From contig JAKOXL010000001.1 of NCBI GenBank assembly GCA_029781045.1, positions 72,084 through 121,122 on the forward strand: DNA of 49,039 nucleotides, read 5' to 3'. Position numbers and translations under genes: made by a program. The stretch is from Bacillota bacterium (GTDB taxonomy: Bacteria; Bacillota; UBA994; UBA5500). Below are positions 4,321-43,246 of the stretch, piece after piece. The notes beneath the pieces were generated by a model that worked only from the letters and a program-made list of their open reading frames with translations, was not told the DNA's origin and made no database searches. The stretch's first letter is position 1, and every line of letters starts with the position of its first letter.

Positions 4321-6756
4321 TTGGAATTTGATCATGGAACGATCATGCCCGTTGACATAGATCAGGAGATGAAGAAGTCCTACCTCAGCTATGCCATGGC
4401 TGTTATCGTGGGACGAGCCTTGCCCGACGTGCGGGACGGTTTAAAGCCGGTCCACCGCCGTATTCTTTATGCCATGGGGGAGCTGGGGTTTACCCCCGAC
4501 AAACCCTACAAGAAATCGGCCCGTATTGTTGGTGAGGTTTTAGGTAAGTTCCATCCCCATGGTGAGGGGGCAGTTTACGACACCATGGTGCGCATGGCCC
4601 AAGACTTTAACTCTCGTTATTTGCTCATCGATGGCCATGGCAACTTGGGTTCCATCGACGGCGATTCGCCGGCAGCCATGCGCTACACAGAGGCTCGCCT
4701 GGCACCTTTGGCTATGGAGATGTTGCGAGACATCGAGAAAAATACCGTCGACTTTGGACCCAACTTCGACGATACCATTCAAGAACCACTGGTTTTGCCG
4801 GCCCGTTTTCCCAATCTACTGGTAAACGGTTCTTCAGGTATTGCCGTTGGTATGGCTACCAATATACCTCCCCACAATTTGGGCGAAGTCATTGATGGGT
4901 TGGTTGCCCTTATTGATAATCCCGATATTTCCATAGATAAGCTGATGACCTATATTAAGGGGCCCGACTTCCCCACCGGTGCTTTCATTATGGGTAAGGA
5001 TGGAATTCGCTCTGCCTATAAAACCGGGCGCGGATCTATCCGCATCCGGGCTAAAGCCCACATTGAAAAGCAGAGTAATGGTAAACAGCGTATTGTGGTG
5101 AGCGAGATTCCTTATCAAGTTAATAAGGCCAAGTTAATTGAACGCATTGCCGAGTTGGCCGTAAAAGAAAAGCGCATTGACGGTATTACTGGTCTAAACG
5201 ACGAGAGTGACCGGGAAGATCCGGTGCGGATTGTTATTGAATTGCGCCGTGACGCTAACCCCAATGTGGTGTTAAACCAGCTATATAAACACAGTCAAAT
5301 GCAAGTCACTTTTGGCGTTATCATGTTGGCGCTGGTGGATGGGGAACCTAAGGTTCTCAATTTGAAGCAGATACTCCACTATTATTTGGAGCATCAAAAG
5401 CAAGTTGTAACCCGGCGTACCCATTATGAACTGCAAAAGGCGGAGGATCGGGCCCACATCTTGGAAGGGTATCAGATCGCCCTCGACCACATTGATGAGG
5501 TAATAGCCCTCATTAGACGCTCTCGAAATGATGAGGAAGCACGGGTCGGTTTGATGCAGAACTTTGGCTTAAGTGAGAAACAGGCCCAAGCTATACTCGA
5601 TATGCGCTTACGGCGCTTGACCGGATTAGAGCGGGAGAAAATCGACGCCGAGTATGCTGAGCTGCAGCAGACCATTGCCCGCCTGAGGGCGGTACTGGCC
5701 GATGAAAAGCTGCTCCTAGATGTTATCCGGCAAGAGTTGTTGGCTATAAAAGAAAAGTACGCCGACCCGCGGCGTACGGAGATCACTGTTGCCGTTGGTG
5801 ACTTAGATATAGAAGATCTAGTCGCCGATGAGGATACGGTTATAACTATTACCCATCAGGGTTATATTAAGCGGCTACCGGTTGACACCTATCGCAGCCA
5901 ACGCAGGGGTGGACGCGGCATAACCGCCATGGGAACCAAAGACGAAGACTTTGTTGAGCATCTTTTCATTACCACTACTCATCATTACTTACTGGTGCTC
6001 ACCAATCGCGGTCTGGTTTATCGAACAAAGGTCTACGAAATACCGGAAGCCAGCCGTCAAGCCCGTGGCATTCCTATCGTTAATGTCATTCCTTTGGCTG
6101 CCGATGAGCGTATAAGTGCCGTTATCCCCATTCGTAAGTTCGAGGAGGATAAGTATCTCTTCTTGGCTACCGAACAGGGTCTGGTTAAGAAGACGGCCCT
6201 AACGGAATATGCTTCTGTAAGAGCCAATGGTCTAATCGGTATATCTCTGAGAGAAGACGATCAGCTGATCGGAGCCAAGCTAGTGACCGATGGGGATGAG
6301 GCAATTATTAGCACTCGCAATGGTCTGGCTATTCGTTTCCACACCAGTGACGTTCGGCCCATGGGTAGGACGGCCCAGGGTGTACGGGGCATTAATCTGG
6401 CCGACAATGATCAAGTGATCGATATGGATATCGTGCGCGAAAACGCCGATTTACTGGTTGTTACGGAAAATGGTTTTGGTAAGCGCACCCCGATTTCCGA
6501 GTATCGTCGGCAGTTCCGGGGTGGCAAGGGAATTCAAACCATCCGGCCCAGCAAGCGCAACGGTAAAGTTGTGGGTATCAAGATGGTGCGTCAAGAGGAT
6601 GATGTGATGTTGATTACAGCGGAAGGCATAATCATCCGCATGCCGGTACAAGAAATTTCCCAGATGGGGCGTACCACTAAAGGGGTAACCCTTATTCGTT
6701 TAGAGGAAAACGACAAAGTGGTGGCCCTGGCACGGGTCGTACAAAAAGAAGAGTAA
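4321..6756 (+). CDS. gyrA: DNA gyrase subunit A
   Basis: DNA cleavage-rejoining subunit of gyrase, 811 residues, TTG start with AAGAAGGGGTGA upstream. The catalytic tyrosine is Y122 in AMRYTEARL. The C-terminal beta-pinwheel carries the GyrA box QRRGGRG, which identifies gyrase rather than topoisomerase IV. The quinolone-determining loop reads [10 protein letters not shown], so the positions matching E. coli Asp82 and Ser83 are Glu and Gly (see findings). A GC-rich hairpin starts 13 bases after the stop, followed by a dispersed repeat element. Confidence 0.98.
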
Positions 6757-6768
6757 ACAGCAAAAAGG

Positions 6769-6798
6769 GGGAGCTGTCTTGCGACAGCTCCCTTTACT
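6769..6798 (+). terminator. Intrinsic terminator after gyrA
   Basis: A perfect 10-bp stem, GGGAGCTGTC (6769-6778) and GACAGCTCCC (6783-6792), with a TTGC tetraloop is followed by TTTACT. It is well placed to end the gyrBA transcript. The same GCTGTC/GACAGC hairpin type accompanies the other three copies of the dispersed repeat. Confidence 0.8.
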
Positions 6799-6817: not shown

Positions 6818-6948
6818 GGGCCGTGGTCATACTAGAGCGCCTGTGCCCAACCTCGGTCGGAATGAGCTCAGTTCGCCAAGGGCAGCTGGGCCTGTTGTCG
6901 CTGCTTTTCCTTGGCACCTTCGTTGCGCTGTGTATGACCAACAGCCCT
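6818..6948 (+). repeat. Dispersed intergenic element, copy A (131 bp, short form)
   Basis: Shares a core of about 68 bp (6818-6885) with three other places in the window: TGGTCATACTAGAGCGC, then GTGCCCAACC, GGAATGAGCTC and TTCGCCAAGGGCA. A second block, GGCCTGTTGTCGCTGC, follows at 6888. The ends are imperfect inverted repeats: GGGCCGTGGTCATAC at the left and GTATGACCAACAGCCC at the right. Compared with copy D it lacks about 100 bp in the middle. No convincing protein is encoded in it. The rest of this gene-free stretch (6949-7098) shows nothing I can name apart from the ribosome binding site of the next gene. Confidence 0.75.
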
Positions 6949-7098
6949 ATGGACCATGGTGCCGGGGCTACTTGCAATCTTAGCGCGCCTTTTTGCCCAA
7001 AATGGAGGAGCCGAAGAGGAAAACTAAGTTTGCTTGCCGAATAGTTCATAAACGCGACTGTCACTACTGCCAGCAATGCAAGGGAGAGGGGATTCGTA

Positions 7099-9059: not shown

Positions 9060-9173
9060 GGGGCACTTTGGGTGGCTCTCTGGAAGGTAAGGAAAAGGGG
9101 TTGTCGCACTAAGCCTTAAGTAACCAAAGCGGCTAATACTATAACGAACAAGCGCGTAGAACCCCATAAGCAG

Positions 9174-9268
9174 TAGAGCGAAGGAGCCAACAGGCCCGGT
9201 TGCCCTTGGCGAACCGAGAGCTCATTCCCACAGAGGTTGGGCACTGGCGCTCTAGTATGACCACGACC
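9174..9268 (-). repeat. Dispersed intergenic element, copy B (deleted form)
   Basis: On the minus strand this reads TGGTCATACTAGAGCGCC, AGTGCCCAACC, GGAATGAGCTC and TTCGCCAAGGGCA, nearly identical to copy A, then GGGCCTGTTGGCTCCTTCGC. TAGAGCG (9174-9180) and CGCTCTA (9248-9254) form a 7-bp inverted repeat bounding the element. The block GGCCTGTTG joins directly to GGCTCC, lacking 16 bp present in copy D. It lies in the 257-base gap between convergent genes; 9060-9173 shows nothing else recognisable. Confidence 0.7.
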
Positions 9269-9287: not shown

Positions 9288-9313
9288 AAGGGGCTGTTCT
9301 GTGACAGCCCCTT
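9288..9313 (-). terminator. Intrinsic terminator of the glycosyltransferase gene
   Basis: Stem AAGGGGCTGT (9288-9297) with ACAGCCCCTT (9304-9313) around a six-base loop lies just beyond the minus-strand stop codon. On the minus strand it is followed by GTTGTTTG, on the plus strand by GATTTATT, so it may act in both directions between the convergent genes. Confidence 0.7.
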
Positions 9314-9316
9314 GAT

Positions 9317-11305
9317 TTATTCTTTACTCCGTGGCGTTTTGGTCCACGATGTGGGATGCCTATTGACACTCTTAAGTAAGAGCGCGCTGGTAAAAGGCAC
9401 GGGGAAGAAGAAGGAAGCTACGGGCAAGAACAGCAGTTGGGCTAGCGCCAGGAATCTGCCATGCCAAGTGTGGGGACGAGCCGCCAAATCCAGATGCTTG
9501 CGATAACGGAAGTAGGCATAAAAGGTAAAGCACAGATAGACCACACTGAAGGCATTCATCATGTGGCGAACGCTGTTAGGGACTTCCTCCACATCCACTT
9601 GGCCAGTTAACCAAAGAAACATTAGAAGTGGCGGAATAAGAGTGGCACACTGAAAGAAACTCCATTCCAACGGCCCCTTTAGCAATAGCTCGCGCAGGAG
9701 AGGTTTCTTTTGCTCCCGGGGATAGGAGTCGTCCTGCCGAATCTTGTCCATTACCTGTAAGAAGCCGGTGCCCCAGCGTAAACGTTGGCGATAAAAACCT
9801 TTGACCGTTGCTGGCGTTTGCTCACTGCTGGGATAGGGCAGATACTCGGGCCAAGCTCCCGTCTTCAAGTAGGCCCGAGTTCCCAATTCCAGATCTTCTG
9901 TGAGAATCGTCGCGTCGTAGCCACCCAGCTCGTCCAGTAGCTGCCGTTCGATGTAGAGGTTAGTCCCTCCCACAAAGGGCAGGCGTCGGAACATGATGGG
10001 CAGATACCAGTCATGGGATATGGTTTGATAAAGGCTGGCCAGCTTACTTAAAGGCCCTATGTCATAGAAGTTGCGCACCTGAAAGGCTGGGCCCTGGAAA
10101 ATACGAACTGGCTGCTCATCGGTCAACCGTCGATAGGCGACGTACAATAACACGTTAGGATCGGGGCGGCTTTCTGCGTCATAGAAACCATACATGACCG
10201 TGCGTTCATCAACCGCTAGGGGAAGTGCATAGTTCAGGGCTCTACCCTTGGTGGAAGGAACGGCATAGCCCAGACATTTGCCTTTAAACTTGCCATCGAA
10301 ATCATAGGGGACTTCCACATGCTTGACCACCGGTTTATTGGGTTCCTGCGCCAGCTCAGTCCGTACCCTCTCCACAATCTGTTGGGTGCAGGGGAAGCAG
10401 AACTGGTATATTTCTTCTAGGTGTTCCTTCAAGCAACCGGCAGCTTGCATCTCCGCCACCACCTGCTGCACCCGATCTCCCACCATCTTGGCTAGACGGG
10501 AGACAATCTCTTGGGTAATACGATGATTGGCGCGGGCGCTATACTGTACCACATTCCGCATCAAGGCCCCATGGTCATTCCCCGTCCAGATGGCAAAACG
10601 CTGGATGATGGGCACGGCCAGGCACAGATAATTGGGATAGATGCTTTCGATCTCTTTATCCTTAAGCTCTGGATAGTAGCGGCGGAAGAGTCGAAACACC
10701 CGGTAGAGGCTGATGCGGCCGTTTCCCTTAAGAATATCGGCTGTCAGTTCATAGAGTAGCAACCGCGATTTCCAAAGGGGTTCTTTGGTGAAAGTAGGGG
10801 GGAGCAACCAGGGTTCGGCGGGGCAGGTCTGATCTTTATATTCGGCAATACAGAGGTCGGCCAATAAACCTACCACCATTTCTTGTACATGCGGGCGTAA
10901 GGGACCCCGCCAATTGTTCTCCAAAGCATAATCTAAGAATTGCAGGGTGTCTAGAATATAGTTCTTTTTGTCCTCCCCGTTTTTCATTCTCTCCTTGGCA
11001 TCGGTCACTACGATTACTTCAAAGCGCTTAGGATCATAGATAAGCTCTGACATGTGGCGTATGGTCTTTTCAATAACCTCGGCTTCGTTTCTTGCCGGAA
11101 TAAGGATGGAGAAGAAGGGCAATTGCTCTTGACGTTGCTTGGCTATTTCCTGTACTTTTGCTAAGGACAGGTTTGGCCGTCTGCGCCAGAATCTACTTTC
11201 CGAATACCTTCTCCAGAAGAAGAAGCGGGCAAAAAGCAGAAAGAATAATAGGTACATGGCCAGAGCGAATAGATAGACCAGTTTCGGGCCTGACAAATAC
11301 ATCAC
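9317..11305 (-). CDS. Membrane glycosyltransferase family 2, processive type, with large insertion
   Basis: Protein of 662 residues. One membrane helix lies near residues 10-30, the GT-A fold starts at FFSILIPARNEAEVIEKT (64-81) with VIVVTDAKE (98-105), and a helical stretch of about 220 residues (110-330) interrupts it. The fold resumes with STKGRALNYAL and YGFYDAESRPDPN (DxD-like, 373-384), TEDLELGTRAY (469-479) and QRLRWGTG (507-514). QxxRW with ED is the signature of processive synthases such as cellulose and hyaluronan synthases. Three further C-terminal membrane segments follow. It probably makes or extends an envelope polysaccharide; the substrate is unknown. The start is a GTG at 11305 or ATG at 11302, with only a weak ribosome site. 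It is the first gene so far on the minus strand. Confidence 0.82.
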   Translation of the reverse strand: MMYLSGPKLVYLFALAMYLLFFLLFARFFFWRRYSESRFWRRRPNLSLAKVQEIAKQRQEQLPFFSILIPARNEAEVIEKTIRHMSELIYDPKRFEVIVVTDAKERMKNGEDKKNYILDTLQFLDYALENNWRGPLRPHVQEMVVGLLADLCIAEYKDQTCPAEPWLLPPTFTKEPLWKSRLLLYELTADILKGNGRISLYRVFRLFRRYYPELKDKEIESIYPNYLCLAVPIIQRFAIWTGNDHGALMRNVVQYSARANHRITQEIVSRLAKMVGDRVQQVVAEMQAAGCLKEHLEEIYQFCFPCTQQIVERVRTELAQEPNKPVVKHVEVPYDFDGKFKGKCLGYAVPSTKGRALNYALPLAVDERTVMYGFYDAESRPDPNVLLYVAYRRLTDEQPVRIFQGPAFQVRNFYDIGPLSKLASLYQTISHDWYLPIMFRRLPFVGGTNLYIERQLLDELGGYDATILTEDLELGTRAYLKTGAWPEYLPYPSSEQTPATVKGFYRQRLRWGTGFLQVMDKIRQDDSYPREQKKPLLRELLLKGPLEWSFFQCATLIPPLLMFLWLTGQVDVEEVPNSVRHMMNAFSVVYLCFTFYAYFRYRKHLDLAARPHTWHGRFLALAQLLFLPVASFFFPVPFTSALLLKSVNRHPTSWTKTPRSKE

Positions 11306-32368: not shown

Positions 32369-32376
32369 GCTCTAAG

Positions 32377-32561
32377 GCGAAGGAGCTGAGGAATAGCAGC
32401 GACAACAGGCCAGCAGTTTTACGCTGCACCATACTAGGGAGCCTAGCTTCAGACATTTAGACAGTCTCAGAAGTGCAATTGGGTGCGAGTGTCGGCGTTG
32501 CCCTTGGCGCTCCGAGCCCATTTCGGCCGCGGGCTGGGCACTAAAGCTCGAGCATGGTCCT
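32377..32561 (-). repeat. Dispersed intergenic element, copy C (long form)
   Basis: On the minus strand the element reads GACCATGCTCGAGC, TAGTGCCCAGCCC, GCGCCAAGGGCAACG, ACACTCGCACC, then ATGGTGCAGCGTAAAACTGC and GGCCTGTTGTCGCTGCTATT. It parallels copy D along about 180 bp, including the middle part absent from copies A and B. In this copy AGCCC and GGGCT inside the core can pair. The far end runs into the U32 stop codon region and has no clear inverted terminus. It occupies most of the 368-base gap before walR; 32617-32736 holds the walR ribosome binding site and no firmly placed promoter. Confidence 0.65.
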
Positions 32562-32587
32562 CAGTGTCTGCACTAATGAGAAGTTAA

Positions 32588-32609
32588 GGGGCTGTCCTGC
32601 GACAGTCCC
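32588..32609. other. GC-rich hairpin adjoining copy C
   Basis: GGGGCTGTC and GACAGTCCC (one G-T) around CTGC. Both strands lack a proper T-tract, so it is not a clear terminator. It is the same hairpin type and lies at the same distance from the repeat core as in copies A and B. Confidence 0.6.
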
Positions 32610-32736
32610 TCTACTTTTGCTCGCCCTATATTTGCCTGTAATATCAATTTTGAACTAATTGCCCGACGGCAGGGAATGACCATTTCCTTCACGAAGTAAT
32701 ACACTGCTAACGAGGAGCTAGAGAGGAGGCAGTGCG

Positions 32737-42954: not shown

Positions 42955-43009
42955 TCAAGAGCTAATGGAGGGACTGAGGCAAGAAAGCCCCTTCTTTTGT
43001 AGTACCTGA

Positions 43010-43246
43010 GGGCCGTGGTCATGCTAGAGCGCTAGTGCCCAGCCCACTGTCGGAATGAGCTCAGTTCGCCAAGGGCAGCGACGGCACTCGCACCGAATCG
43101 CCTAGTTGAAACTGTCGTAGGGTCAAAAGTCAGGCTTTTGTCATGGTGCAGCGAAAGACTGCTCGGCCTGTTGTCGCTGCTATTCCTTGGCTCCCTCGCT
43201 CCTTTGATTGTTGGGCCCAATGCGCTGTGCGCATGACCAACGGCCC
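43010..43246 (+). repeat. Dispersed intergenic element, copy D (237 bp, both ends present)
   Basis: The most complete copy. Left end GGGCCGTGGTCATGC, core GTGCCCAGCCC, GGAATGAGCTC and TTCGCCAAGGGCA, middle block shared with copy C (ATGGTGCAGCGAAAGACTGC), then GGCCTGTTGTCGCTGCT and the right end GCATGACCAACGGCCC, which is the inverted left end with one extra base. Just before it, GGGACT...AGCCCC (42970-42992) is a decayed form of the hairpin found by the other copies. The remaining gene-free bases to 43339 show nothing I can name. Confidence 0.78.

Follow-up and report, generated by a model that had tools for sequence, protein, structure and literature searches.

The window analysed here, a 49,039-nt stretch forming part of contig C9 of a Bacillota genome (G000; 2.0 Mb in 57 contigs), contains four non-coding places with shared sequence blocks, raising the question of whether they are copies of a mobile element, an RNA gene family or a transcript-end processing element, all of which had been proposed in an earlier note on this DNA. 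An alignment of the four copies, A to D, showed that the blocks are present at all four places as that note had stated, with 60 invariant columns. Copies A and D are on the + strand and copies B and C on the - strand; A and B are 92% identical over 51 nt, and C and D 74% identical over 117 nt. There is a long form (C and D) and a short form (A and B), because a segment of ~75 nt at the apex of the common fold is present in the former and missing from the latter. The 3' end of a gene in the same direction precedes three of the four copies, as had been claimed, namely A (gyrA-like), B (the gene ending at 9317) and D (hisS-like), and not C. The features of the four copies are as follows.

4321-6756: gyrA-like gene upstream of copy A
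6766..6795, + strand: left end of copy A, a predicted terminator hairpin (GGGAGCTGTC..GACAGCTCCC TTT), 10 nt past the gyrA-like stop
6818..6947, + strand: rod core of copy A, short form
6975..6996, + strand: degenerate right end of copy A (CTTAGCGCGCCTTTTT, cf. CTTAGTGCGACAGCCCCTT), weak
9095..9115, - strand: right terminal inverted repeat of copy B (AAGGGGTTGTCGCACTAAGCC on the + strand)
9140..9268, - strand: rod core of copy B, short form, part deleted
9288..9313, - strand: left end of copy B, a predicted terminator hairpin, at the 3' end of the gene 9317-11305 (- strand)
32376..32566, - strand: rod core of copy C, long form, right part missing
32586..32610, - strand: left-end hairpin of copy C (AAGGGGCTGTCCTGCGACAGTCCCT on the + strand), no gene 3' end here
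42969..42993, + strand: left-end hairpin of copy D, decayed (AGGGACTGAGGCAAGAAAGCCCCTT), 14 nt past the hisS-like stop
43010..43246, + strand: rod core of copy D, long form with the ~75-nt apex segment
43255..43272, + strand: degenerate right end of copy D (ACCTGAGTGCCGCCTTCG, cf. ACCTTAGTGCGACAGCCCC), weak

Further copies were sought by genome BLAST and then with a covariance model. Copy D gave 52 matching pieces in the whole genome, the best second copy being 87% identical over 242 nt. The model (R1), built from 16 copies from five genomes, returned at E <= 1 some 42 copies in G000, 29 in G001 and 10 in G002 (both of the same genus), 53 in G003 (same family) and 7 in G055 (another family), so that the three closer relatives hold 10-53 copies each. 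Across the phylum, 12 of 249 genomes matched R1 at E <= 0.01, a threshold at which ~2.5 false positives are expected and the E-values are rough; the two weakest genomes, G020 and G225, are doubtful. Diverged copies occur in other families, at least eight genomes outside the home family passing 1e-4, and the 11 other genomes of the same class contain none. The distribution in the phylum is patchy. The extra segments at the apex were observed to differ by lineage (~75 nt in G000 copies L001-L007, another segment in L049 of G001). In addition, three contig breaks in G000 (the starts of C9 and C31, and the end of C6) fall inside near-identical long copies (L004, L007 and L011), which suggests that these were recently duplicated.

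The earlier note had taken GGGCCGTGGTCATGC (43010-43024) and GCATGACCAACGGCCC (43231-43246) of copy D as the inverted terminal repeats of the element. Both are present and complementary, but they form the base of an internal rod and are not the transposon ends, as the alignment of G000 copies extends outward beyond this core. The true ends in G000 are 13-bp inverted repeats, AGGGGCTGTCGCA...TGCGACAGCCCCT, the full left end being AGGGGCTGTCGCAAAACAGCCCCTTTTT and the right end, 30-60 nt past the core, ACCTTAGTGCGAC(A/T)GCCCCT, also written TGCGAC(A/T)GCCCCT. The GC-rich hairpin noted at 20-27 nt from each copy does exist, but it is the element's own left end rather than a neighbour, because the left 13-bp repeat forms half of it. 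The units thus delimited measure ~210-330 bp, too short to encode a transposase. Within one mismatch, the left-end 13-mer occurs 84 times in G000, as compared with 3 times for the reversed control, and its surroundings contain units in every state of decay, the most reduced being lone hairpins where genes end. Such lone left hairpins, lacking any core, were seen at gene 3' ends at loci L058-L087 (e.g., L058, L059, L067 and L075 at 1501), and they are apparently terminators derived from the mobile element. At another locus (L082 1501-1533; G000:C9:15161-15193), two element ends are fused head to head, AAGGGCTGTCGCA-GAGACTA-TGCGACAGCCCTT, forming a perfect inverted repeat that encloses nothing else.

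The near symmetry of the hairpin meant that its orientation had to be set by the end sequence. The hairpin end of the element points towards the 3' end of the upstream gene in a ratio of 39:11 overall and 29:4 within 60 nt in G000, counts that take in a few low-score or strand-misread cases. Among 40 left hairpins, the mismatches comprise 18 G-U and 5 A-C, compensatory double changes occur in nine, and the next 8 bases contain 5.5 T. Judging from these sequences, this is the pattern expected from selection as a terminator in RNA, and the left hairpin is predicted to work as the terminator of the upstream gene. Of the proposal of a transcript-end processing element, this terminator is the part that holds.

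G000 yielded no IS1182-family transposase, although a non-autonomous derivative does not need one in its own genome; fragments of one are present in G002 and G003. The ends of the units match those of these IS1182-family relics over 15-18 nt. In G003, the right end AGGGGCTGTCGCACTAAGG agrees with the relic ends at L055 and L056 at 15 of 16 positions, and both G000 end types are found on the relics: L055 and L056 have AGGGGCTGTTGCACTA, which differs from the right end of the MITE by one mismatch, and L053 has TGGGGCGTGTCGCAAAACG, which equals the left MITE end (..TGTCGCAAAAC) save one inserted base. At L056 an end lies on each side of the transposase fragment in one contig, and from overlapping contig ends we infer that L055 and L053 are parts of one element. 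A second type of unit, in G001 and G002, has the right end GAGACCACTGAA(A/G)AAGTC, and in G002 an IS1182 transposase ORF is preceded, at a distance of 62 nt, by the same 18-mer (L052 at 1392). Directly upstream of that transposase fragment lies a Y1-transposase-like (RAYT-type) ORF, named by eye (L052 569-1375 and 1471-2166; G002:C81). A third type, in G095, G055 and G129, ends in GTYGACAAA and resembles, less closely, two IS1182 copies in G244 whose ends are TCTAGGAGACTGTTGACCAA. Nowhere among the genomes examined was there an intact parent whose two ends both matched, and recognisable IS1182-type ends were not seen on the G003 rods and some G001 rods. These terminal matches point to mobilisation of the units in trans by an IS1182-family transposase.

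The sites of insertion bear on the same question. Second-type units in G001 and G002 are flanked by exact direct repeats, GGACGGCAC (L262), GGACGGTCA (L264) and GGATACTGC (L267), with further direct repeats of 10-12 bp at L268 and, with one difference, at L266; several lie in the motif GGGGGACGG. In G095, G055 and G129 the flanking direct repeats are entire locus-specific terminator hairpins of 19-25 nt, situated at fixed distances in G095 and its kin (20-25 nt on the left, 15-16 nt on the right), with the T tract kept in the right copy and gone from the left. Eight of the 24 copies in G095 beat the 99th percentile of permuted left/right pairs; examples of hairpin duplication are L161 (AGACCCGGAAACGGGTCTT on both sides), L139, L177 and L144. 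Target duplications in relatives are thus of 9-12 bp at palindromes or comprise an entire terminator hairpin. In G000, none was found at the 15 units with both ends, including short ones outside the terminal repeats, and at bare rods in G003 and G001 none exceeded permuted pairs, one of six in G001 being marginal. Orthologous sites in relatives lack the core at two of the four window positions: at the gyrA-like site (copy A), the core is missing from G001 and G003, where unrelated terminators lie instead, and at the hisS-like site (copy D), G002 and G003 have no core. The site of copy C, the only genomic position seen to be common to species, has a 59-nt remnant in the same orientation in G002; therefore, the insertion of copy C is older. 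As judged from these flanks, the target is a stem-loop or a terminator, as in the IS1182-family mode. By analogy with IS1272, the target terminator in G000 was probably deleted and replaced, and both outcomes, deletion without duplication and duplication, appear to be present in different lineages.

Taken together, the matching IS1182-family termini in relatives, the target duplications and the relatives' sites without a core uphold the proposal of a MITE-like mobile element. With a probability of roughly 0.8, the repeats are MITEs of a non-autonomous IS1182 type, moved in trans, which insert at stem-loops and carry a rod core inside. This kind of mobile element is already known; the combination and the core are not in Rfam or in the papers searched, and no paper describing the element family was found in that literature.

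The core folds as a rod of 155-185 nt, made up of outer stems, an internal loop, inner stems and a variable apex, with folding z-scores of -4.9 and -5.7. The internal loop, in which GAAUGAGCUC faces GCUCCYUCGCUCYUUUGAUU, is conserved across families. As an all-family MAFFT alignment misaligned the outer stems and the apex and recovered covariation only in the central stems, covariation was taken from within-group alignments and alignment A2. In A2, 93.3% of cells are paired as compared with 83.7% after shuffling, double-change cells number 51 against 16.7, and the covariation score is 0.271 against 0.112; none of 500 shuffles reached the pairing, double-change or covariation values, and sliding abolished the signal. 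The structure came from A2 itself, which biases the percent-paired value in its favour; double changes are the stronger measure, with counts that kinship between the sequences can inflate. Near many G003 rods (L232, L233, L241, L245 and L247), a second repeat, GCAGGCCTGGGGTTACTGCGTAGGCCCGTTGGAGCC, was observed 20-60 nt on the 3' side, and the 40 nt to the left of others (e.g., L237, L248 and L250) resemble another rod start (GGTCATGCTCGCGCGC); the G003 units may be nested or in partial tandem.

Such covariation, together with the conserved loop bases and the z-scores, is what a structured non-coding RNA gene family, either a regulator or a selfish RNA, would be expected to show, and the G003 rods without transposon ends would fit flanking ends that are incidental carriers. 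A selected RNA fold should, however, tolerate G-U above A-C, and we counted both at stem positions with a Watson-Crick majority. The rod stems gave G-U:A-C ratios of 20:19, 17:17 and 5:6 in three groups, in total 42:42, whereas 6S RNA, run through the same pipeline in 13 of the same genomes, gave 21:8, and the terminator hairpin 18:5 (Fisher p of 0.05 for the rod core against 6S and 0.018 against the hairpin, on small counts). Compensatory changes are thus present in the rod, and a strand-specific excess of G-U over A-C is not. Since G-U equals A-C in the rod, unlike in 6S or the terminator hairpin, a fold at the DNA level is favoured over an RNA gene; the wobble counts point to pairing in DNA, or to copies decaying neutrally from masters that retained the fold. 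The element had no relevant match in Rfam at gathering and relaxed thresholds, its copy number is high with decay, and apart from copy C no conservation of position across species was seen. We therefore regard an RNA gene family as unlikely. Separately, one region of G225 (L132 1770-1924) scored 40.3 bits to the TwoAYGGAY RNA family, for which the cut-off is 43.

The lack of strand bias would also be expected if stem covariation had arisen incidentally, through quasi-palindrome correction in an old MITE whose fold has no function. Quasi-palindrome correction, by template switching in replication, makes arms match without selection. The process should, however, erase internal loops, and here non-complementary loops are conserved on both sides across families, which makes this account improbable, more so than an RNA gene. 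Somewhat less improbable than either is that the rod is an independent mobile palindrome whose units acquired different IS1182-like ends in each lineage. Three end types do occur on the same rod, AGGGGCTGTCGCA (G000), GAGACCACTGAAAAAGTC or GCTGAAAAAGTC (G001, G002 and G057) and GTYGACAAA (G095 and its kin), and G003 has bare rods; yet no target duplication was found at bare rod ends in G003 and G001, and bare rods may equally be old units with decayed ends. That the copies are nothing more than repeated terminators with flanks similar by chance is hardly credible: a number of isolated hairpins that lack a core (L058, L059, L067 and L075) are as this would predict, but it is refuted by the 87% identity over 242 nt and the 42 covariance-model copies in G000, and remnants at all stages of decay stand beside hairpins.

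Under the preferred reading of IS1182-type MITEs, IS1182-family transposases would recognise the ends of the ~210-330 bp units and move them in trans, with insertion at DNA stem-loops, chiefly intrinsic terminators. In G000 the element would take the place of the target terminator and bring its own, since the left inverted repeat folds with its adjoining bases into a terminator hairpin; in relatives, the target is duplicated on insertion, as 9-12 bp at palindromes or as an entire hairpin. After insertion, the hairpin would be retained as the terminator of the gene while the remainder decays. Pairing in the rod has been maintained by compensatory change across distant families, and most likely as folded DNA, a cruciform or a single-strand hairpin, the rod would aid mobility, for example as a site for the transposase or a host factor. 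We hold this role tentatively, at rather less than even odds. The link between rod and transposition is one of association only, because no rod was found inside any of the autonomous IS1182 loci examined. A less probable, though not negligible, view is that the rod represents a module of folded DNA which is conserved in its own right, occurs in several families of the phylum, functions as a cruciform or single-strand hairpin and comes to be embedded in units with various IS1182-type ends.

Among known repeats, bcr1 of the Bacillus cereus group resembles the element in being an intergenic, MITE-like imperfect palindrome of ~125-170 bp. The same is true of ERIC/RU (PMC2759123), and both are set apart, by description, by the IS1182-type ends and terminator targeting of the element here. 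BOX, RUP and SPRITE of Streptococcus pneumoniae (PMC3049150, PMC10969869) are likewise small dispersed intergenic elements with stable folds, and the modular length variants of BOX and the terminator-like hairpin of SPRITE are shared with our element; compared by description, they are known from one species, whereas the core here occurs in several families of the phylum. The REPs of RAYT (PMC3733652) are also dispersed palindromes, and some G001/G002 copies are inserted beside the REP-like-looking motif GGGGGACGG, but REPs measure 20-40 bp and the element here is 5-10x longer with its own terminal repeats. The closest likeness is to IS1272/TnSha1 and the IS1182 family, which insert into stem-loop terminators without a primary-sequence consensus (PMC4923244, PMC5678879) and have a similar terminal motif (CTGTYGMCAAA-like), with IS1182-family relics bearing matching ends in relatives. 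IS1272 reportedly deletes the terminator stem-loops that it targets (PMC4923244, PMC5678879), without leaving a duplication, and the G000 units likewise show none. In contrast, IS1272/TnSha1 are autonomous or composite with a transposase, whereas the element here has none and carries an unrelated structured core instead. A further difference from IS1272 is that entire stem-loops are duplicated in relatives of this genome, an outcome so far only drawn as a possible pathway (PMC5678879).

These results tie a dispersed repeat family to a structure-guided mode of transposition and offer natural cases of whole-stem-loop duplication, until now present only as a drawn pathway. They also suggest that a mobile element provides replacement terminators to dozens of genes. 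In the rod, a long DNA fold maintained through compensatory mutation, yet lacking the strand bias expected of RNA, becomes open to testing; if the rod is an independently conserved module, it would represent folded DNA that serves, for example, to enhance transposition or to act as a decoy stem-loop, and it would be a structured DNA 'passenger' whose evolution is shaped by selection on base pairs.
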